Below, in pieces: positions 25,293-51,651 of a stretch of DNA of 51,651 nt. Made by a program: the position numbers and the translations under genes. The notes below the pieces were generated by a model. It made no database searches. It was not told where the DNA came from and saw only the letters and a program-made list of their open reading frames with translations. The stretch is taken from assembly GCA_001567115.1 (NCBI GenBank), contig LMZT01000121.1, forward strand, positions 1 through 51,651. Reading direction: 5' to 3'. The first letter of the stretch is position 1. Each line of letters opens with the position of its first letter. The DNA comes from Candidatus Hinthialibacteria bacterium OLB16. GTDB taxonomy: Bacteria; Hinthialibacterota; Hinthialibacteria; OLB16.

Positions 25293-25359
25293 ACCAATAA
25301 TACTGAGAAGGGGTCAATTTTATCCATCCTAAAATGACAAAAGATTGGAGCCACTCAAT

Positions 25360-28938: not shown

Positions 28939-29046
28939 CCGGGAATTGCGGGGGGATCAGACTGATTCCCTCCCTGGCCAGCAGTAAAACACCGCTGGAT
29001 CCGAAGGCGGCACGAAAGAAAAAGCAAATTCAGGAGGAAACAACCG

Positions 29047-30054: not shown

Positions 30055-30168
30055 GAGCACATACAGATCTTTATCATTCAGTATTGTTTTGGGACTCCCC
30101 TGAGTGGGAGACAGGGTTTCTTTGCCAATAATGCCGCCTGTGGACGGCCGAAATTAAAGGAGCCTTAA

Positions 30169-30670
30169 ATGATTCTAGCCCCGGAAAAAAATTCCTTTCC
30201 CATCCGATGACAAGCGCTGGCGTCTGGTGGCAACCACCATGCGCCGCCTTGGCTACAAACCCCATGCCCTGATCGAAGCTCTGCACACTGTTCAGGAGAC
30301 TTTCGGCTATATCGATGAGGATGCCCTCAAGTACCTCTCACGCGCCCTGCGGATCCCCCTGAGCCAGGTTTATGGAGTCGCCACCTTCTACCATTACTTC
30401 AGCATGAAGCCCCAGGGGAAGCATACCTGCGTGGTCTGCATGGGAACTGCCTGCTACATCAAAGGCACCGGCCAAATCCTGAACAACCTCGAGAATGCCT
30501 ATTCCATCAAGGCTGGTGAGACCACACCCGATGGCGGCCTTTCCCTGCTGACAGCACGCTGCCTGGGGGCTTGCGGGATCGCCCCCGCAGTGGTTCTTGA
30601 TGGAGTCGTTATCGGTCATGCCGACCCCGCGCACTTCAACGCCCGTGTTGAGGAGAAACTCAAACAATGA
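30169..30670 (+). CDS. hoxE: Bidirectional hydrogenase subunit HoxE (NuoE-like), frameshifted near start
   Basis: A [2Fe-2S] subunit of the diaphorase part of NAD-linked [NiFe] hydrogenase. The thioredoxin-like domain carries four cysteines, [10 protein letters not shown] and CLGACGIAP. The body reads from about 30191 in one frame. The natural start is an ATG at 30169, preceded by AAAGGAG (30156-30162), in the neighbouring frame: MILAPEK, then [24 protein letters not shown]. Removing one A from the A7 run at 30185-30191 joins them into 166 residues, close to the usual HoxE length. Without the repair a GTG at 30227 could be used, but it lacks a ribosome-binding site. The stop overlaps the hoxF start (ATGA). 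Confidence 0.85.
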
Positions 30671-32274
30671 CAACCGATGAACTTCAACAGATATCCACGA
30701 TCGAACAGGAAACCCAGGGGCAGTACCAGCACCATGTCTGTGTCTGTGTCGCAGCCGGCTGCCTCTCCTCTCAAGCGGATGTGGTGCAGGAATCTCTGGC
30801 CAAAGAAATCGAGCGCCAGGGCATGGGAGATAAATGCCACATCAAAGGTGTTGGGTGCATGGGCCTTTGTTCGAGAGGCCCCCTGGTTTCTGTCGACCCT
30901 GAAGGGGTTCTCTATCAGAATGTAAAGCCCTCCGATTCCGCCGAGATTATCGAGAGCCTTGGCAAAGAGAAAGTCAGCCGCCTGGAATGCTCCACAGAAA
31001 TTCCCTTCTTTCAGCATCAGAAAAAAATTGTTCTTGAAAATTCAGGCCTCATCGATCCCAACCGCATCGAAGAATACATCGCTGTCGGCGGTTATGGCTC
31101 TCTGGTCACCTGTCTGACTGAAATGACCCCCTCCGAGGTGATCGATGAAATCATAAAAAGCGGGCTGAGAGGGCGTGGCGGAGCCGGATATCCGACAGGC
31201 CTGAAATGGAGCATGGTTGCCAAATCCCGTCCGGGGCACAACGGCAAGTACATCGTCTGCAATGCCGATGAAGGAGACCCGGGCGCCTTCATGGATCGCA
31301 GTGTGCTCGAAAGCGATCCCCACCGCATTATCGAAGGCATGACCATTGCCGCCTATGCGGTCGGGGCCACCAATGGCTATATCTATGTCCGGGCTGAATA
31401 CCCGCTGGCCATCAAACGGCTGAGGAATGCCATCCGTCAGGCCTCACGCCTCGGCCTCCTGGGAAATGAAATCTGTGGAACTCCGCATCGTTTCAATATC
31501 GAACTCCGCCTCGGGGCGGGAGCTTTTGTCTGCGGAGAGGAAACCGCTCTGCTGGCATCCATCGAGGGCAAGCGTGGCACCCCGCGCCCACGGCCCCCAT
31601 TCCCTGCTGAATCCGGCCTCTGGGAGGCGCCGACACTGATCAATAATGTCGAGACCTTCGCCAATATCGCCACGGTTATCCGCAATGGCAGTTCGTGGTT
31701 TTCGGCTATCGGAACTGAAAAAAGCAAGGGGACCAAAGTCTTCGCCCTGGCTGGCCGGGTTGAAAACACCGGCCTGATCGAGGTTCCGATGGGAATCACC
31801 TTGCGCGAAATCATTTTCGAAATTGGCGGAGGCATTCCCGGCGGAGCCAGATTCAAGGCAGTCCAGACCGGTGGCCCATCCGGAGGCTGCATTCCTGAGA
31901 ATTTCCTCGATGCCCCTGTCGATTATGAGTCCCTGAACCGCCTCGGATCCATTATGGGATCGGGAGGCATGATCGTGATGGATGAAACCTCCAATATGGT
32001 GGATGTCGCCAAATTCTTCATGGACTTCAGCCGTTCGGAGTCCTGCGGCAAATGCACTCCCTGCCGGGTCGGGACCGCGGTCATGTATGACCTGCTGGCG
32101 CGGATCACGGATGGGGAGGGGCGTGAACAGGATCTGTCGATGCTCGAAGAGCTGTGCGATCTGGTTAAGAACACCAGTTTGTGCGGCCTCGGCCAGACCG
32201 CTCCGAACCCGGTCTTGAGCACCCTGCGGTACTTCCGCGAGGAATATAACCACCAGCTGGTTTCCAGCGAATGA
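30667..32274 (+). CDS. hoxF: Bidirectional hydrogenase subunit HoxF (NuoF-like)
   Basis: A 535-residue NADH-binding subunit with FMN and iron-sulfur centres, catalysing electron exchange with NAD(H). Order: an N-terminal thioredoxin-like [2Fe-2S] domain (about 20-110, CVAAGC and CMGLC), the Rossmann-like FMN/NADH domain with [13 protein letters not shown] and [13 protein letters not shown], a soluble ligand-binding beta-grasp region, and the C-terminal 4Fe-4S motif SCGKCTPCR with a fourth Cys in TSLCGLG. The length matches cyanobacterial HoxF rather than the NuoE-HoxF fusions of Cupriavidus. It is translationally coupled to hoxE, with hoxU 35 nt downstream. Confidence 0.93.
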
Positions 32275-32309
32275 GGCTGTCGAGGGAATTGAAACATGGA
32301 GCCTGAATC

Positions 32310-33032
32310 ATGAGCCCGAATGTTCGAGTAAAAACACTCAAAATCGACGGAAAAGATGTCAGCGCCCGTGAGGATCAGACCATCCTCTCGGTAGCGCGGG
32401 AAAATGACATCTTCATTCCCACCCTCTGCCAAATGGATGGGCTGACATCGGTGGGCGCCTGCCGCCTCTGCCTGGTGGAAATCAAGGGATCCGCGAAACT
32501 GCAGGCTGCCTGTGTCACTGAAGTCCAGGAGGGAATGGAAGTCGTCACCGACTCGGAGCGCCTGCACAGCTATCGCAAAATGCTGATCGAGCTGCTGTTC
32601 GTTGCCCGCAATCACATCTGCTCGGTGTGTGTGTCCAATGGCCACTGTGAACTTCAGTCGCTGGCCCAGCGGCTCGGCATTACACATATCCATTTTCCGT
32701 TCCGTTACCCGAAACTGGCTGTCGACCTTTCACATGACCGGTTCGGGATGGATAACAACCGGTGCATCCGTTGCGGGCGCTGTGTGCGGGTCTGTGATGA
32801 AATTGAGGGCGCGCATACCTGGGACCTGATGGGCCGTGGAGATGCCTCTCAGATCGTCTGCGACCTCAATCAGCCCTGGGGGTCCTCCGAAACCTGCACC
32901 TCCTGCGGAAAATGTGTCCATGTCTGCCCCACCGGCGCACTTTTCGAAAAAGGAAAGTCTTCTTCCGAAATGTCCAAACGACAGGAATTCCTGCCCTACC
33001 TCACTCTCATGCGTGGAGACCACAATGAGTAA
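32310..33032 (+). CDS. hoxU: Bidirectional hydrogenase subunit HoxU (NuoG-like)
   Basis: A 240-residue iron-sulfur subunit joining the diaphorase to the hydrogenase part. It has the ferredoxin-like [2Fe-2S] site ([17 protein letters not shown] plus a later Cys in AACVTE), the His/Cys 4Fe-4S region ([14 protein letters not shown]), and two 4Fe-4S ferredoxin repeats ([13 protein letters not shown] and [12 protein letters not shown]). The order and length are those of HoxU. Its last 8 nt overlap the start of hoxY, implying coupled translation and matched amounts of the two. Confidence 0.93.
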
Positions 33033-33558
33033 GAAAACCCTTGCCACTGTCTGGCTGGATGGCTGCTCAGGCTGCCACATGTCTTTCCTTGATCTGGATG
33101 AACGCCTGGTGGGGATCCTGGACAAAGCCGACCTTGTCTACAGCCCGCTGGTGGATATAAAAAAATTTCCGGACATGGTCGATATCGCCCTGATCGAAGG
33201 AGCTGTCAGCAGCAATGAAGACCAGGAGAAGGTCCGCAATATCCGCAGGCACACACGGTGCCTGGTTTCACTGGGGGATTGTGCAGTCAACTCGAATGTT
33301 CCCGGAATGCGGAACTACTTCAAGGTTGAGGAACTGTTCAATCGGGGGTATTTCGAGAATGCCACCCGAAATCCGAGGGTCCCGGATGTGGGCCTGCCGC
33401 AGCTTTTGAAACGGGCCTGCCCGGTGCATGAGGTAGTCCAGGTGGATTTCTTCATTCCCGGGTGCCCGCCCTCAGCGGATGCCATCCACTTCGTTCTCAA
33501 TGAACTTCTCGATGATCGAATTCCGGATATCAGCCAGTTGACACGCTTTGGTGCTTGA
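33025..33558 (+). CDS. hoxY: [NiFe] hydrogenase small subunit HoxY
   Basis: A 177-residue cytoplasmic small subunit of the group 3d type. The ATG at 33025 lies within the end of hoxU; earlier starts in this frame lie inside hoxU and are shadows. It carries the proximal 4Fe-4S cluster ligands Cys14 and Cys17 in [24 protein letters not shown], and [10 protein letters not shown]. It lacks a Tat signal and the extra medial and distal clusters of membrane-bound enzymes, as expected for HoxY. It passes electrons between HoxU and the HoxH active site. hoxH begins 15 nt downstream. Confidence 0.93.
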
Positions 33559-33573
33559 AAGAGGTCCGATAAC

Positions 33574-35001
33574 ATGAACCGACAAATCGTTATTGATCCC
33601 GTCACACGGATCGAAGGCCACGGAAAAATCACGATTCACCTCGATGAAGACGGGCAGGTGGAAAATGCGGTCTTTGCGGTGACACAGTTCAGAGGCTTCG
33701 AGAAGATCTGTGAAGGACGCCCCTTCCGTGAGATGCCCTCGCTGATGGCCCGCATCTGCGGTATCTGTCCTGTGTCACATCTGATTGCATCAGCCAAGGC
33801 GTGTGATGAACTTCTGGCAGTGCGCATTCCGCCAACAGCCGCCAACCTGCGCAAGGTCATGAATATCGCCCAGATTGTCCAATCCCATGCACTGAGCTTT
33901 TTCCATCTGGCTTCGCCCGACCTGCTGCTAGGAATGGATGCGGATCCGGCCCAGCGCAATATCGTCGGAGTGTTGAAGAATAATCCCGAACTGGCTCGAG
34001 GTGGCATCCGCCTTCGCCAGTTTGGCCAGCAGATCATCGAATGGCTGGGCGGAAAGCGCATCCATCCCTCCTGGGTGGTTCCGGGCGGGGTCAATGGACC
34101 TCTGACCGCCGAACTTCGTGACCGGATTCTCGCGACTGTTCCAGAAGCCCTCGATATTATCCAGAAGACACTGAACTGGTTCAAACGGACACTTGCCCGA
34201 TATAACGAGGAGATCCGCACCTTCGCCAATTTCCCCAGCCTGTTCATGGGGCTGGTATCCAGGGACAAGGAGCTCGAGTTCTATGATGGCTCTATCAGGA
34301 TCCTTGGTGCCGGCGGCAACATCCTAGCGGATAATCTCGACCCGGCCAGATACACGGAATTCATCGGCGAATCGGTCGAAGAGTTCAGTTACCTCAAATC
34401 ACCGTTCTATGAGCCTCTGGGATATCCCAATGGGATGTACCGGGTCGGGCCTCTGGCAAGGCTGAATATCATCGACCGGGCCGGAACTCCTCTGGCCGAT
34501 CAGGAACTGGCTGAATTCCGCACGCTTGAACGAGGGGCGGTGCTGTCATCCTTTCACTACCACTATGCGCGCCTGATCGAGATTCTTCATGGCATTGAAA
34601 AAATCGAAATGATCCTGAATGACAAGGAGATCCTGAGCAGCCATGTGCGTGCCCTGGCGCGCCCGAATGCCTTTGAGGGAGTCGGTGTTTCCGAGGCTCC
34701 CCGTGGAACCCTGATGCACCACTACAAAATCGATGAGGATGGCCTCATGGTCTGGGCCAACCTGATCATCGCCACCGGCCATAACAATCTCGCCATGAAC
34801 CGTGGAGTCCTCCAGGTCGCCAAACATTTCGTCGATGGCCGGAAACTCCAGGAAGGGATGCTGAATCGGGTCGAGGCGGTTATTCGCGCTTATGATCCCT
34901 GCCTGAGCTGTTCCACCCATGCCCTGGGCAAAATGCCGCTTCTGATCGAACTGGTCGAACCGGATGGACGCATTGTGGATGAACTGAGGCGGGAAAAATG
35001 A
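33574..35001 (+). CDS. hoxH: [NiFe] hydrogenase large subunit HoxH
   Basis: A 475-residue catalytic subunit holding the Ni-Fe(CN)2CO centre. Both metal-binding motifs are intact: [10 protein letters not shown] (Cys62, Cys65) and DPCLSCSTH (Cys443, Cys446, His449). A 26-residue tail after His449 (starting [11 protein letters not shown]) should be removed by the maturation protease encoded next. The tail shows that nickel insertion is proofread as in other [NiFe] enzymes. Similarity to HoxH and operon order hoxEFUYH indicate the bidirectional NAD-linked group 3d enzyme, which in fermenters usually makes H2 to discard NADH electrons. The stop overlaps hoxW by 4 bp. Confidence 0.95.
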
Positions 35002-35507
35002 ACCGGGTCCTGGTGATCGGATTTGGCAATCCGCTGCGTGGGGATGATGGATTTGGCTGGGAGGTTGCCGGGCAGCTCGAGAGAAGGCTGTCACAGGAAT
35101 CTTCAGTCCATATTCTGACTCCCATTCAGCTGGCTCCGGAGCTGGCTGAGACCCTGACCCGGTATGATCATGTATTTTTCGTCGATGCCGCGCTCGGAGA
35201 TCAACCAGGACGATTGATTCTGACCGAAATCGCCGAAGGGAATCTCGACAGCGGTTTTACCCACCATCTGGATCCCCAGGCGCTTCTGGCTTCCGCCCGA
35301 ATCCTGTTCGGAGCTCAGCCAAGAGGCCGCATCCTGACAGTCGATGGATTGAATTTCGAACTGGGACAGGGCCTTTCCGATCCGATCACGCGAGCACTTC
35401 CTGAGGCGGTTCACCTGCTTGAAAAAGAGATCGAAAAAATCCTGGGCGATGACCCTGAGGCACAGGCCTTCGCTCAGACAAACATGGAGGTGGAGTCCGA
35501 TGCATGA
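34998..35507 (+). CDS. hoxW: Hydrogenase maturation endopeptidase HoxW/HycI family
   Basis: A 169-residue protease that clips the C-terminal tail of HoxH once nickel is in place. The family motif [13 protein letters not shown] (residues 8-20) includes the nickel-sensing acid in GNPLRGDD. The second metal-binding acid is in [11 protein letters not shown] (about 60-70), and [10 protein letters not shown] has the conserved His near residue 90. The ATG overlaps the hoxH stop (ATGA), and hypA follows with an 8-nt overlap. The C terminus is about 15 residues longer than usual and acidic. Confidence 0.9.
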
Positions 35508-35847
35508 GTTTTCGATTGTGGAAGCTCTGGTTCAACGCATTCTGAGTGAGGTCCGGAAGCAGGGGGATCCCAGGGTGGATGCCATTCATTTCCGTCGTGG
35601 CAGTGCCTTCTCGGAACCGGCTCTGGTTCAGGCCTTTGAAGTCCTTGCCAGGGATACACCTTTGGAAAAGGCACGCCTGGAAATCGAGATTCTGAATCGC
35701 GATTTCACCTGCCCGAGGTGCGGCCACAGCCAGGTGGTCCAGAGTGATGACCTGGTCGGCCACATGTTTGTCTGTCCGGGATGTGGTTATGTGGAAGAGA
35801 TCGATGAGGCTCATGATCTCGAGCTGCTCTCGGTAAGGGTTGCTTGA
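35500..35847 (+). CDS. hypA: Hydrogenase nickel incorporation protein HypA
   Basis: A 115-residue nickel chaperone. The start is at MHE, where His2 is the nickel ligand; the motif requires this exact start, so the longer frame upstream is discounted. The zinc site is Cys71/Cys74 and Cys92/Cys95 (CPRCGH and CPGCGY). HypA works with the GTPase HypB to load nickel into HoxH. hypB, hypC, hypD and hypE are not in this window, so other maturation genes must lie elsewhere. It overlaps hoxW by 8 nt and closes the operon. Confidence 0.93.
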   Translation: MHEFSIVEALVQRILSEVRKQGDPRVDAIHFRRGSAFSEPALVQAFEVLARDTPLEKARLEIEILNRDFTCPRCGHSQVVQSDDLVGHMFVCPGCGYVEEIDEAHDLELLSVRVA

Positions 35848-35869
35848 GCAGCGGGAATAACAGTAAAAT
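35840..35869 (+). promoter_or_regulatory. Possible promoter for the acyl-CoA synthetase/GNAT gene
   Basis: TTGCTT (35840-35845), an 18-nt spacer and TAAAAT (35864-35869). The -10 is good and the -35 poor. It overlaps the hypA stop. Confidence 0.3.
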
Positions 35870-35964
35870 AAGACCACATTTATTTCTTTATTCGTGCAGT
35901 TGAAATTGAGTTGGATTTCCGTCCCGATCGAATGGGGAGCAGTGAACTTAAGAAGGAGCTGGAA

Positions 35965-38706
35965 ATGGATCGAAGATATAGTGAAAACGCCCTGGAACAG
36001 GTAACTCCCGAAGAGGTGGGCCATCCGCTGGATTCGTTCTTTCACCCCGGGACAGTTGCATTGATTGGAGCCACCGAAAAAGCAGGCAGTGTCGGAAGAA
36101 CCCTCCTGCGGAACCTGGTGACAAACCCGTTTGGAGGCACTGTCTTTCCTGTCAATCCCAAAAGGCCCAGTGTCTGGGGAATCAAGGCCTACCCGAGTGT
36201 CGGTTCGATTCCCGAGAAGATTGACATGGCGGTGGTGGTCACGCCTGCCCCCAGCATACCGGGCATCATCGAGGAATGTGTCGAGGCCAATGTCAAAAGC
36301 GCCATTATCATATCCGCCGGTTTCAAAGAACTGGGTCCCGAGGGTGCCAAACTCGAGCAGGATATCCTTGAACGTGCACGCAAGGGAAATATCCGCATCA
36401 TCGGCCCCAACTGCCTGGGCCTGATGAATCCGATTACCGGGTTGAATGCCACTTTCGCCAGCAGCATCGCACGCCCCGGCAATGTGGGTTTCATCAGCCA
36501 GTCAGGGGCACTCTGCACAGCCATTCTTGACTGGAGCCAGCAGCACAAGGTCGGTTTCAGTGCCTTCGTTTCCATTGGTTCAATGGTCGATGTCGGCTGG
36601 GGAGATCTGATCGATTATCTGGGCGATGATCCCAAAACTAAAAGCATCGTTATATACATGGAAACTGTGGGTGATGCGCGGTCGTTCATTTCAGCCGCAC
36701 GTGAGGTGGCCCTGACCAAGCCCATTATCGTCATCAAAGCTGGAAGGACCGCGCAGGCTGCCAAAGCGGCTGCTTCTCACACTGGCTCCCTGGCAGGCAG
36801 TGATGAGGTTCTTCGTGCTTCGTTTCGCCGGACCGGCGTTCTTCAGGTGGACAGCATCGAAGACCTGTTTTACATGGCGGAGGTCCTCGCCAAGCAGCCC
36901 AGGCCGAAAGGCCCGCACCTCGCTATCTTCACCAATGCCGGTGGGCCGGGTGTGCTTGCCACCGATGCGCTCATCATGTCGGGTGGCGAACTGGCCGAGC
37001 TGTCGGACGAAACTGTGTCTGCCCTCAGTGAGTTCCTGCCGGTCCACTGGAGTCATGGCAACCCGATCGACATTCTCGGCGATGCCGACCCGGACCGTTA
37101 CGCTCGCGCCCTCGAAACTGTCGCCAAAGATCCTGACAGCGATGGATTGCTGGTCATTCTGACCCCGCAGGATATGACCGATCCGACACAGACAGCCGAG
37201 AAACTGATCCCCTATGCCAAAATCGAAGGAAAGCCGGTTCTCGCCAGCTGGATGGGAGGCCCGGAAGTGGCGGCTGGCGAAAGCATTCTGACCAAAGCGG
37301 GGATTCCAACCTTTCCATACCCCGATATCGCTGCGCGTGTTTTCAATTATATGTGGCGCTACTCCTACCACCTTCGGGGCCTTTATGAAACACCGAGCCT
37401 GCAAGTCGATCAGGAGGAATATGTCCCGGACCGGGAGAAAGTCGATCAGATTATCTCTTCAGCATTGAATGAAGGCCGGACAATCCTGACCGAGTTCGAA
37501 TCCAAGGAAGTCCTCGCCGCTTATGGGATCCCCGCGGTGAAGACCCTGATCGCCACCACCGAGGCCGATGCGGTCCAAGCTGCAGCCGATGCGGGCTATC
37601 CGGTGGTTCTCAAACTGTACTCGCAGACCATCACCCATAAGACCGATGTCGGCGGTGTCCAGCTCAACCTGGAAAATGAAGAAGATGTCAGGCGCGCCTA
37701 TAAATCCATTCTCAAGGGTGTGACTGAAAAAGCGGGCGCAGAGCATTTTCAGGGCGTCACTGTCCAGCCCATGATCAAACGTGAAGGGTATGAGATCATC
37801 ATCGGCAGCAGCATCGATGAGCAGTTCGGCCCGGTTCTGCTGTTTGGCTCCGGCGGGCAGCTGGTGGAAGTCTTCAAAGACCGCTCTCTCGGCCTTCCGC
37901 CTCTCAATACCACCCTGGCACGCAGGATGATGGAACAAACCAAGATTTACAAAGCGCTCAAAGGTGTCCGGGGGCGCCGCCCGGTGGATTTGTCGGAGCT
38001 CGAGCACCTCATGGTGCGATTCAGCTACCTGGTATCCGAGCAGCCGCGCATCCGGGAAATCGATATCAATCCCTTGCTGGCATCGCCGGATATGCTGGTC
38101 GCTCTGGATGCCCGTGTTGTCATCTTCGGGGCGGATGTCGCCGATGACCAATTGCCGAAACTGGCCATCCGGCCATATCCGACCCAGTACGCCCAATCCT
38201 GGAAAACAAAACAGGGGCTGGATGTCATGATTCGGCTGATCCGACCTGAGGACGAACCAGCGATGGTTCGTTTCCATGAGACCCTTTCCGAACGGACTGT
38301 ATACTACCGTTACCTGCACACATTGAAGCTGTCTCAACGAGTCACTCATGAACGCCTCACACGCATCTGCTTCAGCGACTACAGCCGGGAATGGCCGCTC
38401 GTGATCGAGCGCAAAGGTGAAAATGCGGGTGAGTATGAAATCCTCGGGGTTGGACGGCTGACCCGCAGCCGGATCGAGGATGAAGCGGAATTTGCCATTC
38501 TTGTGGCTGACAAGTACCAGAAACAGGGGCTTGGTTCCGAACTCCTGCGACGCCTGATTGATATCGGGCGGAAAGAAGGGTTCAAGCGGATCGTTGGCTT
38601 GATCCTTCCGGAAAATTATGAGATGCAGAGAGTTTCCGAGAAGCTCGGATTTGTGACCGAGCATGATGTCCAGGAAGGCCTGGTAAAAGCTGTCTACGTT
38701 TTATAG
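35965..38706 (+). CDS. ADP-forming acyl-CoA synthetase fused to GNAT acetyltransferase (Pat-like)
   Basis: A 913-residue protein. The ATG at 35965 is chosen for its AAGGAG (35953-35958); a TTG at 35911 is less likely. Order: CoA-binding Rossmann domain (about 20-120), succinyl-CoA-ligase-like domains, ATP-grasp domain (about 480-700), then a GNAT domain (about 735-910) with the acetyl-CoA loop [10 protein letters not shown]. This is the layout of the protein lysine acetyltransferases Pat/YfiQ. The loop around His272 (ASHTGSLAG) keeps the phospho-histidine position of true ADP-forming acetyl-CoA synthetases, so the protein may also make ATP and acetate from PFOR-derived acetyl-CoA. Either activity, or both, is possible. 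Confidence 0.85.
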
Positions 38707-38739
38707 GCAAGGAGGACAGGGGACCTGACTGACCGCCTG

Positions 38740-41045
38740 ATGCAAAGGTCCCACATCCTGGAAAGATCCGCCTGAGGCTTGCCCTTCGGGGAACTCTTCA
38801 GGGGGTTGGTTTCAGGCCATTTGTTTACCGCCTTGCACAGCAGTGCGAGCTGGGGGGATGGGTCCGGAATACATCCTCAGGTGTGTTTCTCGAAGTTGAG
38901 GGTCTGGAGGAGCGAGTGGAGGCTTTTCTGCTTCGCCTGGAGCAGGAAAAGCCTCCACTTTCCGTTTTTACCAGCATCGAACCACTCTTCCTGGATCCGG
39001 CCGGCTACTCTTCATTCCGGATTCTCGAAAGCGGCAGGACCCAGCCTCGAGCGGTCATTCTCCCCGATATCGCCACATGCCCGGATTGCCTGGAAGAGAT
39101 TCTTGACTCCGGCAACCGTCGTTATCGTTACCCCTTCACCAACTGCACTGCCTGTGGGCCGCGTTACAGCATTATCGAGAAACTTCCTTATGACCGCCCC
39201 AACACCACCATGCGCATCTTCGAAATGTGCTCCGAATGCCGGCAGGAGTATGAAAATCCAGGTGACCGGCGTTTCCATGCGCAGCCGATTGCCTGTCCGG
39301 CTTGTGGCCCGCACATCGCTCTCTGGAATCACGCTGGAGATCTCCTCGCAGAGAAGGACCAGTCCCTGAAAGCAGCAGCCCGGCTCCTCGAGGAAGGAGC
39401 CATTCTCGCATTCAAAGGCCTGGGGGGCTTTCAGCTGCTGGTTGATGCCCGTGACAATGCAGCCGTTTCGAGACTGCGCCAGCTGAAGCATCGTGAAGAA
39501 AAACCATTTGCCATCATGGTTCAAGACATAAAAGAGGCGCAGAAACTCTGTGTCATCGCGCCGATGGAAGAAAGGCTGCTGAAATCACCGGAATCCCCAA
39601 TTGTCCTGCTGCGTAAGAAAAAGGAGATCCTTGCATCCCAGGTGGCGCCTGGCTGTCCCGACCTGGGGGTCCTGCTGCCCTGCACTCCACTTCATCACCT
39701 GCTGTCTGGGGAGATCGGCTTTCCAGTGGTTGCCACCAGTGGAAATCGGACAGATGAGCCGATCTGTATGGATGAATACGAGGCTCTCGATCGCCTCAAA
39801 GGCATTGCGGATGCCTTTCTGGTGCACAATCGCCCGATCCGTCGGTATGTCGATGACTCGGTAGCCCGGGTCATCCTGAAACGCGAAATGCTGCTGCGCC
39901 GGGCACGCGGTTATGCCCCCCTGCCGATCCCACTGCATAAGGACACGCCTCCTCTGTTGGGGGTTGGAGCCCATCTGAAGAATACAGTCGCATTGAGCCT
40001 GGGGAATGAGGTTGTTCTCAGCCAGCACATCGGGGACCTTGAGTCGGTCGAGGCTTTCAATGCCTTCAAGGCAGCAGTCGAGGATCTGCAGGAACTCTTC
40101 CAGGTCAGACCCTCTGAGGTGGTTTGTGATCTGCACCCGGATTATCTTTCCAGCCGCTTCGCCCGGGAAAGGTCTCCACACCCTCTCGCGATCCAGCACC
40201 ATGAGGCCCATATTCTTGCCTGCATGGCTGAAAATGCACTGGCACAGGAGGTCCTGGGTATTTCCTGGGATGGCATCGGCCTTGGGTCGGATCGAACCCT
40301 GTGGGGAGGAGAATTCCTGCTTGTGGAGCCAGCGGGTTCCTCACGCCTTGCGCATCTCAGGCCCTTTCTTCTTCCAGGAGGGGAAAGTGCAGTCAAAGAA
40401 CCGCGCCGTTCGGCGATCGGCCTGCTGTATGAACTGCTGGGGGAATCCTGCTTTTTTCAGGAACATCTGGCTCCGTTTGAGACCTTCTCTGACCAGGACC
40501 TCAAAGTTATCTATCAGGCACTGAAGACCGGGCTGAACTCCCCGGGGACTACATCGATGGGAAGGCTGTTCGATGCTGTGGCCTCTCTCTGTGGGATTCG
40601 CCAGGTGGACCGTTATGAAGGCCAGGCCGCTATGGAACTGGAATCCTCTGCTGTCCTGTCTCCCACAGAAAGCAGTTATGACTTTGTGATTCATGGTGTG
40701 AAGCCTCCATACACGATCGATTGGGGACCGATGGTACGATCCATCCTCGATGACTTGGGGCAGATGCAGCCGGTTGGAGAGATCGCCGGGAAGTTTCATA
40801 ATTCATTGGCGGAAATGATTTTCAGGGCCGCTGTCCTTTCGCATAAAGACACAGTGGTTCTGAGCGGAGGTTGTTTCCAGAACCGGATCCTGCTTGAAAA
40901 AACAGTTCCCCGACTCAAACAGGAAGGTTTTCGGGTATACTGGCCTCAGAGAGTTCCCCCGAATGATGGAGGCATTGCGCTCGGCCAGGTTTATGGGGCA
41001 GCCCATCGGCTTCCGCAATTGAAAGATTCAGCCACAGGAGGGTAG
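38740..41045 (+). CDS. hypF: Carbamoyltransferase HypF, frameshifted near start
   Basis: A 768-residue (after repair) HypF that builds the cyanide ligands of the hydrogenase iron by activating carbamoyl phosphate and loading HypE. Order: acylphosphatase domain with LRGTLQGVGFRPFVYRL, two zinc fingers (CPDC ... CTAC and CSEC ... CPAC), the YrdC-like domain, and the Kae1-like C-terminal domain with HHEAHILACMAEN and SWDGIGLGSD. The in-frame start is lost: the frame has a stop at 38730 and no ATG or GTG. An ATG at 38740, or CTG at 38725 behind AAGGAGG (38709-38715), lies in the next frame. One missing A at 38762-38764 would join it. CarB in this window supplies the carbamoyl phosphate. Confidence 0.85.
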
Positions 41046-42140: not shown

Positions 42141-42776
42141 ATGAACAGGGAAGAACGGACGGATACGATCCAGGCTGATGAACAACTCCGGGCTTCGATT
42201 CTAAATTCGCCCGAAGTGGGTTGGCGGGCTTTTCTTGAGATTCATTCCGCCTTTATCAGGAACATCATTAAACGCCATGGGTTTTCCATTGAAGATTCCG
42301 AGGAAGTCCTGCAGGAGGTTTTTCACAACCTCCTCAAAGAGGATTGCCGGTTTTTCAAGGTGTGGGATTCCAGCAAATGCACCTTGAGAGGATTCCTGTC
42401 AGTTGTGGCAACCCATGCTGCGATCACCTTCTACCATTCCCGTTTTCATCGGGAATCGTTCCTTAAGAGCCATCAGGATGGATCGATCGAACTCGATGTG
42501 CTCGTATCACCTTCTGTCAACCCCGCAGAACGCCTTTTCCGGATTCAGGCTGTTTCGCTGTTGACTGATGTGCTCGACCGCTGGGTTATCGAGGGGAAAC
42601 TGGATTCCATCGATAAGAAAATTGTCCTGCTTCGGCTCAGGGGGCTGTCTTTCAAAGAGATCTCGGATGTGACCGGAATGGCCGTAAACCATACAACTGT
42701 GAGATTTTCACGCCTGAAACCGAGGCTTCAAAAGCTCCTGGCCCGGAAAGGCCTGGAGGAGGATCTAAATGATTAA
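42141..42776 (+). CDS. ECF-type RNA polymerase sigma factor
   Basis: A 211-residue sigma-70-family factor with only regions 2 and 4. Region 2 spans about 25-105, including GFSIEDSEEVLQEVFHNLLKE and the DNA-melting and -10-contacting segment, and region 4 lies at about 145-205 with the LRLRGLSFKEISDVTGM helix-turn-helix. No anti-sigma gene with a zinc-binding motif lies nearby. Instead the gene converges on the kinase/protease giant at 42773-48309, and their stop codons overlap by two bases. Partnership with that protein is inferred from position and from the known pairing of some ECF factors with Ser/Thr kinases. Target promoters are not visible. Confidence 0.85.
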   Translation: MNREERTDTIQADEQLRASILNSPEVGWRAFLEIHSAFIRNIIKRHGFSIEDSEEVLQEVFHNLLKEDCRFFKVWDSSKCTLRGFLSVVATHAAITFYHSRFHRESFLKSHQDGSIELDVLVSPSVNPAERLFRIQAVSLLTDVLDRWVIEGKLDSIDKKIVLLRLRGLSFKEISDVTGMAVNHTTVRFSRLKPRLQKLLARKGLEEDLND

Positions 42777-45700
42777 GGGCCGGTGATCACCCTGATCCCA
42801 TTCCGGCGCAATTTCTCGATCTCTTCCACCTGCCCGGCTGCTGGCGTGTTACGGATATCGAGCTGGTGGAGGCGCTTCAGTCGGGATGCGAACTTGAGAT
42901 CATTGACCGGATTGCCGGAGAGATCCAGTTCATTGAGGTTGCTTAAAACCATCAATGGCAGAGGATTTGATACCTGGTTGAGAGATATCCGGAGGGCGGT
43001 CAGGCAGGTCAGCCCTTTGAGAGCTGACAGGTCGGTAATTCTATTCTCAGCCAGATTCAAATGGCGGAGTCGTGAAAGGTCCCGAAGCGGTGTGAGATCA
43101 TGAATCCGGTTCTTGATCAGGGTCAGGCTTTCCAGGTATCCGAGTTCTGCAATCGGTGAAATATCTTCGATGCCTGATCCATTGATGGACAGGTGCTGCA
43201 GCCGGTTCATTCCTTCTAGTGCATTCATTTTGAAGCCTGCAAAATCAGTCAGAATCAAGGCCAGCAGGTGGCTGAAACCCTCACCGAAAGACCGGAGCTG
43301 GGAATCCCTGGAGAAGAGATAGAGAAAACGGAGCGAGGGGAGTTGATGGAGGAGAGAAATGTTCTTGATTTCTTTTGTGTCGATCCGGATGTGGTTGAGC
43401 ATGCTGCAGTACTGAATCCCGTTGAGATCGAGGGTTGCTTCAGCCAGATTCAGGTAACGGACTTCTCCGAGATCCTTCTTTGTGAGCGGTCCAGATTTTT
43501 TCCCGGCCTGCTGGCGAAGAGCCTGTTCGAGAATCGGATCTGGGATGTCCACAGCTTCCTCTTCCGGAGATTCCGGATTCTCCAGTTTCTCAAACTGCTT
43601 GTAGAAAGTAGTTTTATAATTCTCGATCTGTGCTGCCAGAGACTCCGCCCCATCTTCGGCATTCAGGGAGTTATCCCAGGGGTATGCGGGCCATATTCTG
43701 ACACTGTTGTCATCCGCCCCGGTGATCAGATATCGGTGCCTGGGTGAGTAAGCCAGACAATGGACCGGCCCCTGATGGCCATGCAGGCTGATCAGCTCCC
43801 GGCCTGTGCCAATTTCCCACACCTTGCAGGAGGAATCCTCAGAGGAGGTAAACAGGCGTTGGCCATCTGGAGAGAACGCCACAGAAAGGACATAGAGGGT
43901 ATGTCCTTCGAAGACCTGAAGCTCCTTGCCGGTTTCGGAATCCCATAACCTGGCGGTTGAATCATCACTGGCTGTGGCAATGAACCGACCTCAGGACTGA
44001 AACGGGCTGCACGGAGGTTCTGGCTGTGACCGGTCAGCTTCATCAATCTTTGCCGTTCGAATGGCTGCCAGACCGTGGCTCCCGGAGAGGTTTCTGCCAC
44101 CACCAGTTTCCCGCTGTCGGGCGACCAGTCGAGATCCTGGATTTCAGTGTCTCCACAATCCCAGCAGGAGGCTTCATGCCAGTCGGTTGTTTTCCAGATT
44201 CGGACCACCCCCTCCATCTCACCGATTGCAAGCCATTGGCCATCTTTTGAAAACCTCAGAGCGGATACAGCTGAAAATGGCCCGCTTAAGGAACCGATCA
44301 GCTCACCAGTATCCACTCGCCAGATTCGAACCATTTTTCCAAGGCCGGCGGCTGCAAACAGGCGGCTGTCCGGGCTGTATTCACCACAGTGAAGTTCATT
44401 GCTGTACCCTTCCTGTTCCCGAACCAGCCCCAAGGAGGGTAATTGCAGAATCGGAAACTGTGCATCATAAAGGCCGCACACCGCCAGTGTGCTTTCGTCG
44501 GGACTTAATGAGGTGAAACGGATCCGGCTGCCCTGCTGGAGGACCAATGGATTCCCGGCTTTTGAGCGGACAGGCCACAGACGGCAGGTTCCATCCGCTC
44601 CCGCACTGGCCAGGGTCTGGCTGTCCGGGCTGAAGGCAATGGAATCGATCGCACCCTGATGACTGGCCAGCTGCTCCTCCTCCTCCCAGGTCCCCGTATG
44701 CCAGACCCGGATGATTCCTTCATTCGAACCGGCTGCCAGCCGCTTCCCATCGGGAGAGAAGGCGATCGAACGGATCATTCTTTCAAAACCATGGAGAGCC
44801 TTGATTTCATTTCCGGTGGCCCGGTCATAAACAAAAACAATCTCCGACATTCCTCCCACTGCCAGGAGATTTCCATCGGGGCTGAAAGCCACCGACTGCA
44901 CATACCCCCACTGCTGCAGGGACAGGAGAAGTTCTCCGCTTGCGGCATCCCACAGGCGGGCCATGCAGTCACAGGGATCATTGCGGCTTCCGCAGGATGC
45001 GAGGAAACGGTTGTCTTTTGACAGCGCGACATCGTTGATTGGATCAGCTCCCTGCTTAAAAGAAGAAATCCACTTGCCGGCCTGGAGGTCATAGAGGTGG
45101 ATGGAGCCATCTTCACACCCGGCTGCCACCAACCGGCCATCTGAACTCAGATCCAGACAACGGAGAATCATTCCCTCCAGCACCAGGCTCTTGACCGTAT
45201 GCCAGTCCGCTGTGTCGATGATATCGACAACACCTCTCTCATATCCTGCCGCAAGCAGTGTCCCGTCTCCGGAAATCTTGATTTCTTTGATAAGCCCTTT
45301 GCCGGGTTTGCTTTGCCGAATTTCGGCTCCCGAACTGGCATCCCAGAGCCGGATGGTCCCATCAACCCCGGCAGTATACAGCCTGCTCCCTTCCGGAGAG
45401 AAAACAGCCGAATTGATTTCGCCTGCATGGCCATAGAGTGTCATCCGATCCTGGTGGCACAGGGAAAACAGATACCCCCACTCCCAGTTGCGATGCTCTT
45501 TGGGTGCATCGAGGAGAATATCCTGCGCCTGGTCGAACCGGAATTCATCGATCGCTTCTTCGGCAAGTTTGATGGATGAAATATACAGCTCTTCTTCAGC
45601 AACACGGCGTGCGGCTTGGGCCTCTTTGAGAGCTATCTGCTCCCGCCACAGCCCATAACCAAGCGCTCCCCCCAGGAGCAGAAACAGAAGCGCTGAGAAA

Positions 45701-48309
45701 ACTGCCCCCATCAGGATGTGTTTCCGTTTTGTTTCCTGAATCCTGGCTCTTTCTGAAAGAGCCAGGGCCTGTTTGCGGGACGTGTAATTCCTCAGGTTTC
45801 TTGCCAGTTCCGAAGCGCTTGAGTAACGCAGTGAGGGTTGCCGGCGGTGCAGTGGTCGATATCTTCGGCTGTAAGCGGATCATGAATATCACGGCGCCAG
45901 TCCACAGTCAGAGGCTGTCTCAGATCCCCCCGGATCATCTGAAAAAGGATGACTCCCAGGGAATAGATATCTGACCGGATTGAGGCGTGGTGATTCATCA
46001 GCAGCTCGGGAGCCATATAGAAACGGCTGCCGGAAAGTGTGGCCAATTCCGTATGGGTGAGTGTGTCGGTATAACCCGGGACTGGCTCGGCAAGCAGGAA
46101 CTGTGGCTGATTGATTTGCCCGATTCCGAAATCGCTCAGTTTGACCCAATACCTCTCCGGATTATCCGGATCTTCAACAACCAGGATATTGGTGGGTTTC
46201 ACATCCCGGTGGATGATTCCCGCATCATGGGCAACCTGCAGGGCATCAGCGATCGAAGCAACCATTTCCAACCGTGATTCGAGTGGCAGTGTGTCGAGAT
46301 GGTCCTTTGCCCAGGCTGACAGATTCTGTCCGGGCACATTCTCCATTGAAATAAAATAGGGTGGCTCATCCACATAGACATCATAAATCTGAACGATATT
46401 CGGATGGTTTCCGACTGCCTGTCTGAGGTGGCGGAATAAATTCGCTTCGCGTATGAGCGATCTGGCACGGTCGGCGCGGAAGCAGAACTTGAAAACACGG
46501 ATTTCCCCATCGATCCCATTCTTTCCACGCCAGACTTCCCCGAATCCCCCTTCACCCAGCTTCTCCACCAGAGTCCATCCCGGCAGAGATGGTATTTCCT
46601 GGTCCAGCCCCGGCCGCCATCCCAGTACCGGGATATCATCAGGGGTGATGCACCTCCAGGCTTCGGAAGTATCGGGAGGCGGCCTGAGCGCTCCCGCTCC
46701 CACCTCACCCACTTCACAAATCTCCAGCTGGTCGGCACGGCCTTTGAAACGAAACGCCCCATGATTGAGCCAGGTGACCGAATCATGGCTCTCCAGATCA
46801 CTGATGTGGAGAATCTGCCGGGCATTATCGAAAACAGATTTCGAGAGCAGTATTTGCCTCGGAAGGGCGACCCGCACAAGGTCATGAAGAATTTCGATCG
46901 GGCCTCCCTCGACCCGGTGCGTTCTTCCTCCCTCTGCATGGCGGAAAAAAAAACATTTCACCATCATGGATGGCGATACGGCAGTCCGGGCCGCTCTCAG
47001 CCAGTGGATCACCCTGCTGCAATCGAGAGACCAGCCGGATGGCGAATCTGACCGCATCAGAAGGTCTCTGGAATGAGCAGAAGATCATGCCATTCTCGAA
47101 ATTCAGCGATTCGGAATGAGGAAACGATGCCAGGGTGGAATGGACCTGATTGATAATCGGGCGCAGGAGGCCATTGGCTGCATTCCGAAGATCCACCAGG
47201 CAGCCTGTCCTGGCCTCGGAGGTCGAAATTTCCTCATGCAGAATCCCGGCTGCCGGGTCGCCAAAAAGCACATACTGCGCCCAGGTCAGGTCATGGACTC
47301 CGCCTTGCGCCTGAGTTTCAAGACGGGCCTGGCGTATGGACTGGCCGATGGATTTCCCAGACAGAAGCAGGGAGTAGATCCTATTGGAAAATTCGCGGCT
47401 CTCACGATCCAGGATTCGGAATAGAGTCCCGATGAAATGCTGGCCGCCACTTCGGATGAAACACTCCAGCATGGCGCTGTGGCCATTCTCTTCGAACCCA
47501 CCCGCTTCGGCTGCATGGCATGCATTGCTGAACACCAGCCGTGGTGGATGCTGGTTCTGGAGGCCCGATCGCAGATCGGCGCAGCCCAGGATTCCATTTG
47601 TGAAAACCCATCCGCGTTCCCCGCTGGCTGGCTTTGTGCCATGCCCGGAGTAATGCAGAATGTCGGCTTTTGCCAATCTGGAAAGCACTGCCTCCTTCTC
47701 GATGTGACCATTAAGCCATTCGACATGCAGTTTCTCTCCACGGGAGAGCTGCTGGACCAGCGAAGCCCCCTCTCTGCCGGATTCCGGGAGGTCATTGGTT
47801 GGATTTGTCACAACCAGGCAATACAGCTCCGGCCCGGGCGGCGGCCGATTGGCGGCCTCGGATTCCCAGGCAGGAACCAGCCTGCCACACGCATAACGGC
47901 ACCCAAAAAACTGAGCCCCATCACTGAGCAGCTCCCAGGGGAAACTGACCAGGCCAGGATCGAGCTGCAGAATCAGGTATTCGCAGGGGGAGTCCTGAAG
48001 ATGTTTCTGAATAGGTTCGGAGAATATCCCTCGAAAGATCTGATGCCCCAGATTGAGGATCGTCGCATGGGTGTGGTTTTTATCGCCATGCAGATTGATC
48101 GAGGCGAAGATGGCCCGGAACTGGTTCGACAGGTCATGGACTGTCTCGATGGACAGATCGGAATGGCAGGTTAACAGCAGATCGGGGTTCTGCCGGGAGG
48201 TCAGGGTGATGTCGATTCCTCCACCTTGCTGGTGGAGATCAAGCAACAGGATCCCGGACACGGATGGAGGGTCAGCCAGAATGGTCGGATCGGATGAGGT
48301 TGAGGACAT
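42773..48309 (-). CDS. Giant CHAT protease / cyclase-like / Ser-Thr kinase / WD40 / LRR protein, split by frameshifts
   Basis: Three single-base repairs (A9 run 46945-46953, 45835-45837, 43989-43990) give one 1,845-residue frame. Order: unknown N terminus (1-105); CHAT caspase-like protease (105-360) with His223 in HYSGHG and Cys264 in SNACHA; degenerate nucleotide-cyclase-like domain (365-535) with AIHDGEMFFF and QILLSKSV; Ser/Thr kinase (577-840) with GEGGFGEVW, Lys607, HRDVKPTN (Asp702) and DFG (Asp726); transmembrane helix (866-886); fourteen WD40 repeats (about 905-1545), enough for two seven-bladed propellers; a linker; and about eight LRRs (about 1590-1845). All protease and kinase residues are present. 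The propellers and LRR are on the far side of the membrane from the kinase. Function is unknown; a sensor that activates a protease is inferred. Confidence 0.8.
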
Positions 48310-48526: not shown

Positions 48527-49615
48527 TCAGGAATCGATTGTGTTGAATATTTTCTCCCAGAAAAATGTGGTGGCACGGAGTCTGTCTTTCTGGCTGATCT
48601 CACCGCAGGTGGCCGATTCCAGATAATTGGCCAGCAATCCCTCCAGAGGAAGGGACCACTCTCTCTCGGCCTGTGAATAAAATCTGCTGAAGGCTTCATC
48701 CGCCTTCCTGTAATCACGCTGCCCGATGCAGTGCCATCCCTCATGAAAAACATCTGTGCCCGGTGCATCGCTCAGGCAGCCTGGAAGCACTGGATGGTCT
48801 TCCGGGTCAACACCACACCCCCGTACAGCCGGAACCGGCATGAGGACATAGCCCTCCTGCTTGATGAATGATTTCATGTTTTTAAGGAACAGCAGGAAAC
48901 GATGGCCGAGGTCTTTCGAGTCGAATATCTCTTCCACCCTGGACTCGAGAACCTGAAGAGCCTGCTGGATGGATCCCTGGATGCACAGCCCCGCCAGCAC
49001 CGCTTTCCACTCCCTTTTTCCAAATTCCCCTTCATCGACCAGGATTTCGACCCCTTCCGATTTGGCGTCACGGCGGATATAGAGAGCAATCCCATTTTCA
49101 ATCGAGAGCGGTTGGGGTTCGAAGGCCGGGGACCAGTTGAAACTCTGAATCAGGAGGCCCTGTTTCCAGACCTCGAGTGTCCCCCCTGAATTTCCATCCA
49201 GATCGACACTGAGAGTGGATGCCCCTTCATTCCGGTTCAGGCTGAAATAGAGATGTTTGCCATCCGGATATGTGAATTCCACCCCAACCTTTCCATCAAA
49301 GCAGTGAATGCCAGGGGTCCGGGTGAGTTTTTCGATCCAGTCGGCAACAAACTGATCCTCCCGAAAGAAGGCCAGGGACTCATTGCACAAGGCCTGTAAA
49401 AATTTCCCGCAGGCATTGACCCTGAATCGCCCTTTAACATGAAATGGCAGATCGAGGTTATTTTCCTCCTTCATTTCAGGAAGAAGGAGCAGTGACATCA
49501 GATCCTCTTCGTTTTCGACCAGATTCAGTGTTTTGATGAGATAGCGCAGATTTTCCGGATTTCTGCAGTTTTCTGCTCTCTTTGAAAGATCACCCATACT
49601 GTATTCTCTATCCAT
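48527..49615 (-). CDS. Hypothetical protein upstream of the CHAT-kinase gene
   Basis: No recognised family. The 362-residue product starts at an ATG preceded by AAAGGAGGAG (complement of 49626-49635), a strong ribosome-binding site with 10-nt spacing. It is predicted soluble and mixed alpha/beta. The N-terminal helical part (about 1-95) includes LIKTLNLVENEEDLMSLLLLPEM. A beta-rich middle (about 100-195) reads GKVGVEFTYPDGKHLYFSLNR and LYIRRDAKSEGVEILVDEGEF. The helical C-terminal part contains DVFHEGWHCIGQRDYRKADEAFSRFYSQAE, which resembles a TPR unit. It is 218 nt upstream of the giant gene, same strand, and is a candidate adaptor or substrate. Confidence 0.65.
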   Translation of the reverse strand: MDREYSMGDLSKRAENCRNPENLRYLIKTLNLVENEEDLMSLLLLPEMKEENNLDLPFHVKGRFRVNACGKFLQALCNESLAFFREDQFVADWIEKLTRTPGIHCFDGKVGVEFTYPDGKHLYFSLNRNEGASTLSVDLDGNSGGTLEVWKQGLLIQSFNWSPAFEPQPLSIENGIALYIRRDAKSEGVEILVDEGEFGKREWKAVLAGLCIQGSIQQALQVLESRVEEIFDSKDLGHRFLLFLKNMKSFIKQEGYVLMPVPAVRGCGVDPEDHPVLPGCLSDAPGTDVFHEGWHCIGQRDYRKADEAFSRFYSQAEREWSLPLEGLLANYLESATCGEISQKDRLRATTFFWEKIFNTIDS

Positions 49616-49793: not shown

Positions 49794-50448
49794 ATGAACC
49801 ACATCAAGTCCAGGCAGCGCGTCGCTGACCACGGCGAGGTCTTCACCCCCGCCGTGGCTGGTCGAGGCCATGCTCGACCTGGTGAAAGGCGAGACGGAGC
49901 GCATCGACTCCCGCTTTCTGGAGCCGGCGTGCGGCAGCGGGAACTTCCTTGTCCGCATCCTGCAACGGAAGCTCGCCGCCGTCGAACTCAAGTTCGGGAA
50001 GTCGGACTTTGAAAGGCGGCAATACGCCCTTCTCGCCCTGATGTGCACCTACGGGATCGAGCTCCTGGAGGACAACATCGCCGAATGCCGCGCGAACATG
50101 CTGGAGGTTCTCGCCAACTACCTGAGGCTTGGGGAATCGGACGAGCTCTATCGGGCCGCTTCCTACGTGCTGTCTCAGAACCTTGTCCACGGCGATGCCC
50201 TGAAGATGCGCACGAACGATGATCAGCCGATCACCTTCGCCGAGTGGGGGTATCTGGGGGAAGGGGAAGTACCAGCGGCGTGACTTCCGCCTCGACATCC
50301 TCGCCCAATCTGCCGGCTTTCACCGCGGAAGACTCGCTCTTCTCCCTCCTCGGGCGGCACGAACCCTTCCGTCCCCTCCAAGGATTACCCCCCAATGACG
50401 TTAAGCCAGTTGGCCGCGCTCGGCGACGCAGAGAGGGAGGTCGCATGA
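49794..50448 (+). CDS. SAM-dependent DNA methyltransferase subunit, multiply frameshifted
   Basis: Small N6-adenine DNA methyltransferase component of a restriction-modification system. The SAM-binding motif I, FLEPACGSGNFLV, is intact, and the flank TPPWLVEAMLDLVKGE precedes it. The gene is broken by four extra bases (C5 run 49846-49850; G4 run 50263-50266; 50315-50316; C4 run 50373-50376). Removing them gives 216 residues from MNHIKSRQRV to GDAEREVA, with a stop at 50446-50448 that overlaps the next start (ATGA). No NPPY motif is in this subunit; it is in the next gene. Codon choice is more G+C-rich than in the rest of the window, consistent with acquisition. Confidence 0.75.
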
Positions 50449-51651
50449 GCACCCAGGCCCGCTTCGCGCTCCGTGGCCGCAACCCGGATGTTCTGACATG
50501 CATCGCGAACCTCTCGAACGACGAAGTCTTCACCCCGCCCGAGCTCGCAAACCGGATGCTGGACACGCTGGCCGAGTCATGGGCGGCGGCCAACGGCGGC
50601 GCTGACATCTGGGCGGACAGCACGGTGAGGTTCCTCGACCCCGTGCACGAAGTCGGGCGTCTTCCTGCGCGAGATCACCAGCCGGCTGGTGACGGGGCTG
50701 GCGGAGGAGATGCCGGAGCTGGAAGCGCGGGTGAACCACATTTTGACCCGGCAGGTGTTCGGCATCGGCATCACCCAACTGACCAGCCTGCTGGCACGGA
50801 GGAGCGTGTATTGCTCCAAGCACGCCAACGGCCAGCACTCGGTTGCCGGGGGGGTTCGACAGCGACGCCGGCAATATCTGGTTCGAGCGGATGGAGCACA
50901 CGTGGCAGGGTGGCAGATGCATTTACTGTGGCAGCAACCAAGCGACCTACGATCGAGGTGACGGGCGTGAAACGCACGCGTATGCGCTCATCCACACTGA
51001 CAACATCAAGACTCGGGTTGCCGAGTTCTTTGGAGGCGACATGCAATTCGACGTGATCATTGGTAACCCGCCGTACCAGTTGGATGATGGCGGCTTTGGC
51101 GCAAGCGCGATCCCCATTTACAACAGATTTGTAGAGCAAGCGAAGGCGCTTGAACCGCGCTTCTTGACGATGGTTATCCCGTCTCGCTGGCTCTTTGGTG
51201 GGCGTGGCCTCGACGAGTTCCGGAGGGCCATGCTTATCGACAATCGGATTAGAAGGCTCGTCGACTATCCGGACAGTCGGCAGGTGTTCCCGAGCGTGGA
51301 TGTTGCGGGAGGTGATCGTGCTACGTTCCTGTGGGACAGAGACAACCCGGGCGATTGTCGCGTTGGTTGAGTTTGAGCACGGGCTAACATCGTCAGAGAC
51401 CGTGCGCCCACTTCTGGAAGATGGTGCCGAAGTATTCATTCGCAGTAATCGCGCGATTGCCATCCTGCGGAAGGGTAATGGCTGTGGAGACGGGCACAAG
51501 GTCACTATCGCTCCCGGAGGCACTGCGCTTCGATAGGCAGGTCAGTTCGCAGAAGCCATTTGGATTGCGGACCTTCTTTCGAGGATCGGATAAGAAGTCG
51601 TCGAAGAGCGACGTGTTGGTCTCCCAAAGTGGAGGGCGAGCTTGGGCGCAT
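50445..51651 (+). CDS. Eco57I-like restriction-modification methylase, frameshifted and truncated
   Basis: Large N6-adenine methyltransferase-type protein of the Eco57I/type IIG-like group, cut by the window end. It begins MSTQARFALRGRNPDVLTCIANLSNDEVFTP. Motif I region FLDP-CTKSGVFLREI is followed by HILTRQVFGIGITQLTSLLARRSVYCSKHANG, a zinc-like cysteine segment (HTWQGGRCIYCG), and motif IV FDVIIGNPPYQLDDGG. Four extra bases break it (C4 run 50639-50642; G7 run 50848-50854; 51365-51366; G3 run 51473-51475). The frame is then open to the end of the window. Whether it is a decayed gene or error-prone sequence is not decidable here. Restriction activity would be in the missing part or absent. 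Confidence 0.75.

Follow-up and report, generated by a model that had tools for sequence, protein, structure and literature searches.

A chain of CHAT protease, Ser/Thr kinase and WD40 repeats, its ECF sigma factor and a predicted anti-sigma partner in Candidatus Hinthialibacteria and related bacteria

On one contig of Candidatus Hinthialibacteria bacterium OLB16, a CHAT protease domain, a protein kinase and repeat domains are lined up on one strand and run into the end of an ECF-type sigma factor gene, which raises the question of whether these parts form a single protein and what such a protein might have to do with transcription. The sequence analyzed, hereafter the window, is this whole contig (LMZT01000121.1, 51,651 nucleotides; G000:C121), which belongs to a 4.05 Mb genome in 181 contigs that is 93% complete. 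Between positions 48309 and 42773 of the minus strand, Pfam matches follow one another in the order CHAT (PF12770), kinase (PF00069), WD40 (PF00400) and LRR_4; with the cyclase-like domain and the transmembrane (TM) helix included, the order is CHAT, cyclase-like domain, Ser/Thr kinase, TM helix, WD40 and LRR, spread over four open reading frames (Table 1).

Table 1. Positions of the chain, its parts and its neighboring genes in the window
Feature	Position	Strand	Basis or remark
ECF-type sigma factor, 211 aa	42141..42776	+	convergent with the chain, with a 4-base overlap at the chain's 3' end
Fourth frame: remaining WD40 blades, then the LRR tail (about 43435-42830)	42773..43882	-	PF00400 E 3e-18, LRR_4 E 5e-20
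Third frame: TM helix, larger part of the WD40 propeller region	43792..45711	-	PF00400 E 1.8e-67, 7 stretches
Transmembrane helix (GAVFSALLFLLLGGALGYGL)	45649..45711	-	translation; between kinase and WD40
Second frame: rest of the cyclase-like domain, then the Ser/Thr kinase	45792..46943	-	PF00069 E 4.7e-37
Class III cyclase domain, probably degenerate	46640..47220	-	spans the T9 frame change; match to PDB cyclase profile
T9 homopolymer, first frame change	46945..46953	-	frames continue exactly on either side in alignment A5
First frame: alpha+beta region at the N-terminus, CHAT domain, beginning of the cyclase-like domain	46950..48309	-	ORF; alignments A1/A5 with unbroken relatives
CHAT protease domain	47257..48051	-	PF12770 E 2.5e-26 to 8e-26, positions 3-289 of 289
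Partner gene, 362 aa, probable zinc-less anti-sigma factor	48527..49615	-	profile matches in 13 loci, each beside a matching sigma gene

The chain and its unbroken relatives

The first-pass annotation had read this region as one protein after repair of its frames, which holds for the family, whereas the window DNA as sequenced contains four ORFs separated by three frame changes within 5.5 kb (at the T9 run and near positions 45845 and 43990, the latter two at short C and G runs as far as can be read from the sequence). In G002 (JAJVIK01, bacterium isolate Bin_79R), a genome of the same family, six paralogues were found, each a single unbroken ORF (1572-2077 aa) that encodes CHAT, a cyclase-like domain, a kinase, a TM helix and WD40, and because of these homologues it is well supported that the window gene is one chain. 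One of them (L024/L042, 1969 aa) has the domain order of the window including the LRR tail, the same tail with which the fourth frame ends, and a convergent sigma gene at its 3' end. That the window instead encodes four independent smaller proteins resembling a chain by chance has a probability close to nil: four ORFs are indeed present, but an alignment shows the frames joining precisely across the first break where the relatives continue, and the six intact chains already refute such a reading for the family.

When the CHAT, cyclase-like, kinase, partner and sigma parts of the window were each compared with the six relatives, L024 was the nearest for all five (the kinases are 61% identical), which indicates that the module is inherited as a unit. 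The LRR tail is a trait of the window subfamily, and other paralogues carry different tails; in G002 these appear from their sequences to be LamG-like, trefoil-like or without an extra domain. A second module of sigma, partner and chain was observed in the genome of the window (G000:C9; L037 5175-12929), which shares the tail of L026 from G002 and has two frame breaks inside CHAT. A search of the genome contigs with a single protein gave no relative, whereas an alignment query did. Among 386 genomes, most of them from outside the class and scored by the best candidates per genome, linkage of CHAT with the degenerate cyclase was detected in G000, G001 and G002 only. The same class also has receptors without CHAT (L038, L040 and L041), which share the cyclase-kinase or kinase-WD40 half with the window chain, and the latter looks like such a receptor half fused to an N-terminal CHAT module.

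Most of the individual domains proposed from the first reading were borne out. The CHAT His/Cys pair (His codon at about 47643, Cys codon at about 47520) is present in the window and invariant in all eight sequences aligned, and the CHAT domain of this family is predicted to be a cysteine protease. A beta-alpha unit precedes CHAT in the predicted model of the chain, while an hhalign match to EACC2-caspase spans the CHAT part alone; the top-ranking Foldseek matches of the chain model were kinases alone. The kinase, in the second frame, has the motifs GEGGFGEV, VFK, HRDVKPTN, DFG and APE, and its active-site Lys, Glu, HRD and DFG residues are intact and invariant in all relatives aligned, as in a Hanks-type Ser/Thr kinase. 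A single membrane helix lies between kinase and WD40, and the WD40 propellers and the LRR tail fit their Pfam matches. Since charge counts around the TM helix in five intact relatives are more positive on the kinase side, the topology suggested is one with kinase and CHAT inside and WD40 and LRR outside. The cyclase-like domain stood as to its family but not as to its active site: profile comparison with solved class III cyclases gave a match to Ma1120 (E 7e-7), whereas the metal-Asp columns are not conserved across paralogues (S/G/K/D/E/E/D/D and D/D/R/E/E/G/T/N). Because these two columns, picked by eye from the alignment, vary, the domain is probably catalytically degenerate and regulatory.

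A separate matter is the state of the window copy itself. It is conceivable, if on the less likely side, that this locus is a decaying pseudogene whose function is kept only in relatives, a state that would not conflict with the explanation favored below for the family. Such decay would fit the density of frame changes in the chain, two more within CHAT in the genome's single further copy, the loss of about 65 aa from the partner, and the full length of long neighbors, namely CarB (1066 aa), PFOR (1197 aa), GspE, HypF and an acyl-CoA ligase-like gene. On the other side, every break lies in or adjoins a short homopolymer, the usual site of read errors, a methyltransferase near the end of the contig (49.8-51.4 kb) is likewise broken, and the four long pieces are each free of in-frame stops. 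A uniform rate of assembly error is made a weaker explanation of the breaks by CarB, PFOR, GspE and HypF, which are full length on the same contig; the breaks may come from decay or from local error.

The flanks of the module were also read. At 49840-51651, fragments of DNA adenine methyltransferase lie in several frames ('EPACGSGNFL', 'NLSNDEVFTPPELANRMLD'), apparently from two different adjoining enzymes and with several frame breaks, which could possibly represent misassembly or decayed restriction-modification genes. Genes for pyruvate:ferredoxin oxidoreductase, a NuoF-like protein, NiFe-hydrogenase subunits and HypF at 25345-41045 form a hydrogen-metabolism cluster adjoining the module.

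The sigma factor and its partner

The sigma factor of the window is of the ECF type, with regions 2 and 4 only. Its match to NCBIfam sigma70-ECF (E 2e-7) falls under the curated cut-off, which the G002 homologue exceeds, and a profile of its subfamily (A3) matches the solved ECF factor SigE over positions 27-207 (E 2.7e-9). The sigma gene of L024/L042 is placed and oriented identically. Across 14 genomes of the class, the subfamily has 13 strong members (179-295 bits; the next best hit reaches 58 bits), which are confined to the four class genomes with strong matches to the full CHAT chain. ECF43-type phospho-activated sigma factors are recognized by region 2.2 having lost its acidic DAED motif; in this subfamily, by contrast, eight of nine members keep the acidic D-x-E-E/D motif. 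As the motif is kept, direct phosphorylation at region 2.2 of the EcfP type is argued against and should not be needed by these factors (PMC8999054). No promoter motif common to the upstream regions of the module genes was found beyond the level of shuffled sequences.

Beside the chain lies a conserved gene that was absent from the first-pass annotation, and the module thus comprises three genes: the chain, the ECF sigma factor and a partner of about 430 aa. The window partner is about 65 aa shorter than its relatives in the middle of the protein, with no frame break. A profile of the partner (A2) recovered 13 genes, which occupy the same 13 loci as the A3 sigma genes in a one-to-one manner (two in G000, seven in G002, three in G001 and one in G004), and the link between chain and sigma factor that had been noted in the window is strengthened by this complete pairing of sigma subfamily and partner. 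A CHAT gene is present in the same locus at 11 of the 13 pairs; for two G001 pairs (L179 and L180), no CHAT gene was seen on the stretch available. A mirror-tree comparison of CHAT and partner across seven modules gave no significant correlation (r 0.21, p 0.20).

What the partner might be is suggested mainly by its N-terminus and by more distant loci. No Pfam match was found for it. When 72 windows were compared by hhalign with a zf-HC2 profile built from the class genomes, the two over the partner N-terminus gave P 1.8e-4 and 4.4e-4, a short and weak resemblance, and the best of the other 70 gave P 0.043; the zinc ligands H-x3-C-x2-C are absent from the aligned partner N-termini. The zf-HC2 domain is the standard zinc-finger anti-sigma domain. 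Outside the class, seven of the 11 CHAT loci read have an ECF sigma factor nearby, and all seven, which are from distant phyla, adjoin a zf-HC2 protein (207-254 aa, E 9e-5 to 8e-9), while no kinase was detected in the three chains scanned from such modules. The partner is therefore proposed as a probable, zinc-less anti-sigma factor, a prediction drawn from sequence comparison.

Several other identities for the partner were considered. An AlphaFold2 model of the L042 partner (pLDDT 74) has N-terminal helices of low confidence, followed by a beta domain and a C-terminus of TPR-like helices, and a Foldseek comparison with the PDB gave no match at E <= 0.001. VIA-align returned middling Ig-like and TPR matches, which may reflect common arrangements rather than a known fold, and Csx30 was not among the matches listed. 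The partner profile had implausible PDB matches only (designed PPR proteins and one stretch of 33 residues). Identity with DUF1822 was not supported by profile comparison (Prob 0.3), and PF08852 (DUF1822) had no match in the class.

Related arrangements were noticed elsewhere. The Leptospira interrogans plasmid pLiSL25 (L122 6095-9116) has, in the same order, genes for a sigma-70 factor and for a hypothetical protein of 242 aa, then an ORF without annotation that is 31.5% identical to the window CHAT. Two compact loci (L188 6643-9802 and L189 130-3373) comprise CHAT, a secreted-looking protein of about 180 aa, an ECF sigma factor and a zf-HC2 anti-sigma factor, and are possibly the simplest form of the CHAT-sigma-anti-sigma module. 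Similar-looking genes for secreted proteins of 672 and 673 aa with 'QRQRRR'-type N-termini (L030 568-6902 and L034 1951-5090) adjoin cyclase-CHAT-type genes in G002 and G001.

A proposed mechanism and its alternatives

The model that we regard as modestly probable is that receptor-activated CHAT cuts the anti-sigma partner and thereby frees the ECF sigma factor. The chain would be a membrane receptor whose external WD40 and LRR parts sense a ligand or a protein, and whose cytosolic part would combine the kinase, the non-catalytic cyclase-like regulatory domain and the CHAT cysteine protease. Sensing would change the kinase, through dimerization or autophosphorylation, and this change would be passed via the cyclase-like linker to activate CHAT; active CHAT would cleave the partner of about 430 aa, which as a zinc-less anti-sigma factor would otherwise keep the adjacent sigma factor inactive, and the freed sigma factor would redirect RNA polymerase. 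The domain order, the invariant catalytic residues, the one-chain homologues, the sigma-partner pairing and the anti-sigma neighbors of distant CHAT genes are observed, from which we infer binding of sigma by the partner, cleavage of the partner by CHAT, gating of CHAT by the kinase, the topology and the ligand. A precedent exists in type III-E CRISPR, where Csx30, which inhibits the ECF factor CASP-sigma, is cleaved by Csx29 (CHAT) (PMC10028731). Weighing against the model are the short and weak anti-sigma resemblance of the partner and its lack of a PDB match by Foldseek, the failure to find a common promoter motif, the uncorrelated CHAT and partner distances, the two G001 pairs with no CHAT gene on the stretch seen, and the three breaks in the window copy.

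An unlikely alternative makes the kinase the switch, which would phosphorylate the partner or sigma factor directly and so free the latter, leaving CHAT to process the chain or end the signal. Conservation is highest in the kinase (mean identity 55%, versus 33% for CHAT and 25% for the partner), kinase distances correlate with those of sigma (r 0.49, p 0.02, one of six comparisons), and control of ECF factors and anti-sigma factors by Ser/Thr protein kinases is known (PMC8999054). However, the distant modules keep sigma, the zf-HC2 anti-sigma factor and CHAT, and it is the absence of a kinase from the three chains scanned there that makes CHAT the constant part of the module; the retained acidic motif of sigma region 2.2 also speaks against direct phosphorylation. 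Still less probable is that the chain is a cell-death effector in which sensing of an invader leads CHAT to cleave many proteins or a pore former. Variable sensor tails and CHAT or caspase domains are typical features of the conflict systems found in multicellular bacteria (PMC8195603, PMC10907252), but no toxic effector such as gasdermin was identified in the locus, whose flanking ORFs were annotated in part, PADLOC returned generic kinase matches only, and the exclusive pairing of sigma and partner points to transcription. Because the distant CHAT genes adjoin an ECF sigma factor and a zinc-finger anti-sigma factor, the module most likely turns genes on by cleavage of an inhibitor rather than by killing the cell. 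Of the initial proposal that a membrane sensor with a kinase controls a death protease, the membrane sensor with kinase and protease is retained and the death role is not supported.

Relation to known systems and significance

The initial impression that no described system has this arrangement is too strong. No description of a chain of CHAT, degenerate cyclase, Ser/Thr kinase, WD40 and LRR was found in open-licence papers, but the coupling of CHAT or caspase domains to ECF sigma factors is already known. Kaur et al. (2021) described, by comparative genomics, EACC2-caspase/CHAT chains with variable tails, Ser/Thr kinases included, beside an ECF sigma factor and DUF1822 (PMC8195603). The window family appears to resemble these in a constant N-terminal alpha+beta region with caspase/CHAT followed by a variable tail, and the reported operon order, with an ECF sigma factor and DUF1822 as the third gene, was seen at the cyanobacterium-type loci read here. 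The two EACC2-type chains scanned, however, have CHASE2 and periplasmic-binding-like tails in place of the cyclase-kinase-WD40-LRR tail of the window, whose partner is unmatched to DUF1822. Genes for CHAT and other proteases also occur near the ECF sigma factors of the ECF54 group, for which proteolysis has been proposed as the means of control; to this extent the group is similar to the window module, but its description includes no anti-sigma factor (PMC8999054), whereas the window module has a predicted one. Chains of active cyclase, CHAT, TPR and CsgG (L181 and L183) have a homologous CHAT domain (313-320 bits with profile A1) within the same sigma/anti-sigma/CHAT module, and differ in an N-terminal cyclase recognized by PF00211, the lack of kinase and WD40, and an anti-sigma factor with zinc ligands.

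In type III-E CRISPR, the pathway from CHAT to sigma has been demonstrated experimentally (PMC10028731). There as here, a CHAT protease, an inhibitor and an ECF sigma factor are neighbors, the cut of the inhibitor being experimental in the former and proposed in the latter. The trigger in type III-E is RNA-bound Cas7-11, whereas in the window family a kinase/WD40/LRR membrane receptor would lie within the protease chain itself; moreover, the window partner has no credible sequence match to any solved chain. No CRISPR-like repeat array was detected at 30000-51651 of the window, and the large ORFs scanned in the window are metabolic or secretion genes.

Tentatively, and at a little under even confidence, chains of this kind may represent a CRISPR-independent receptor family in which a kinase and a caspase-like protease share one polypeptide and free a dedicated ECF sigma factor through the cut of a zinc-less anti-sigma factor. 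One genome would then have seven such sigma-partner-CHAT channels in parallel, most of them with differing sensor tails (LRR, LamG-like, trefoil-like or none). Such a module would bring receptor kinases together with caspase-like proteases and alternative sigma factors as one inherited unit outside CRISPR, and its partner offers a concrete predicted substrate for CHAT proteases, a group in which known substrates are few. The module also points to the logic of type III-E, in which CHAT cuts a sigma inhibitor, as part of a wider theme of bacterial signaling.
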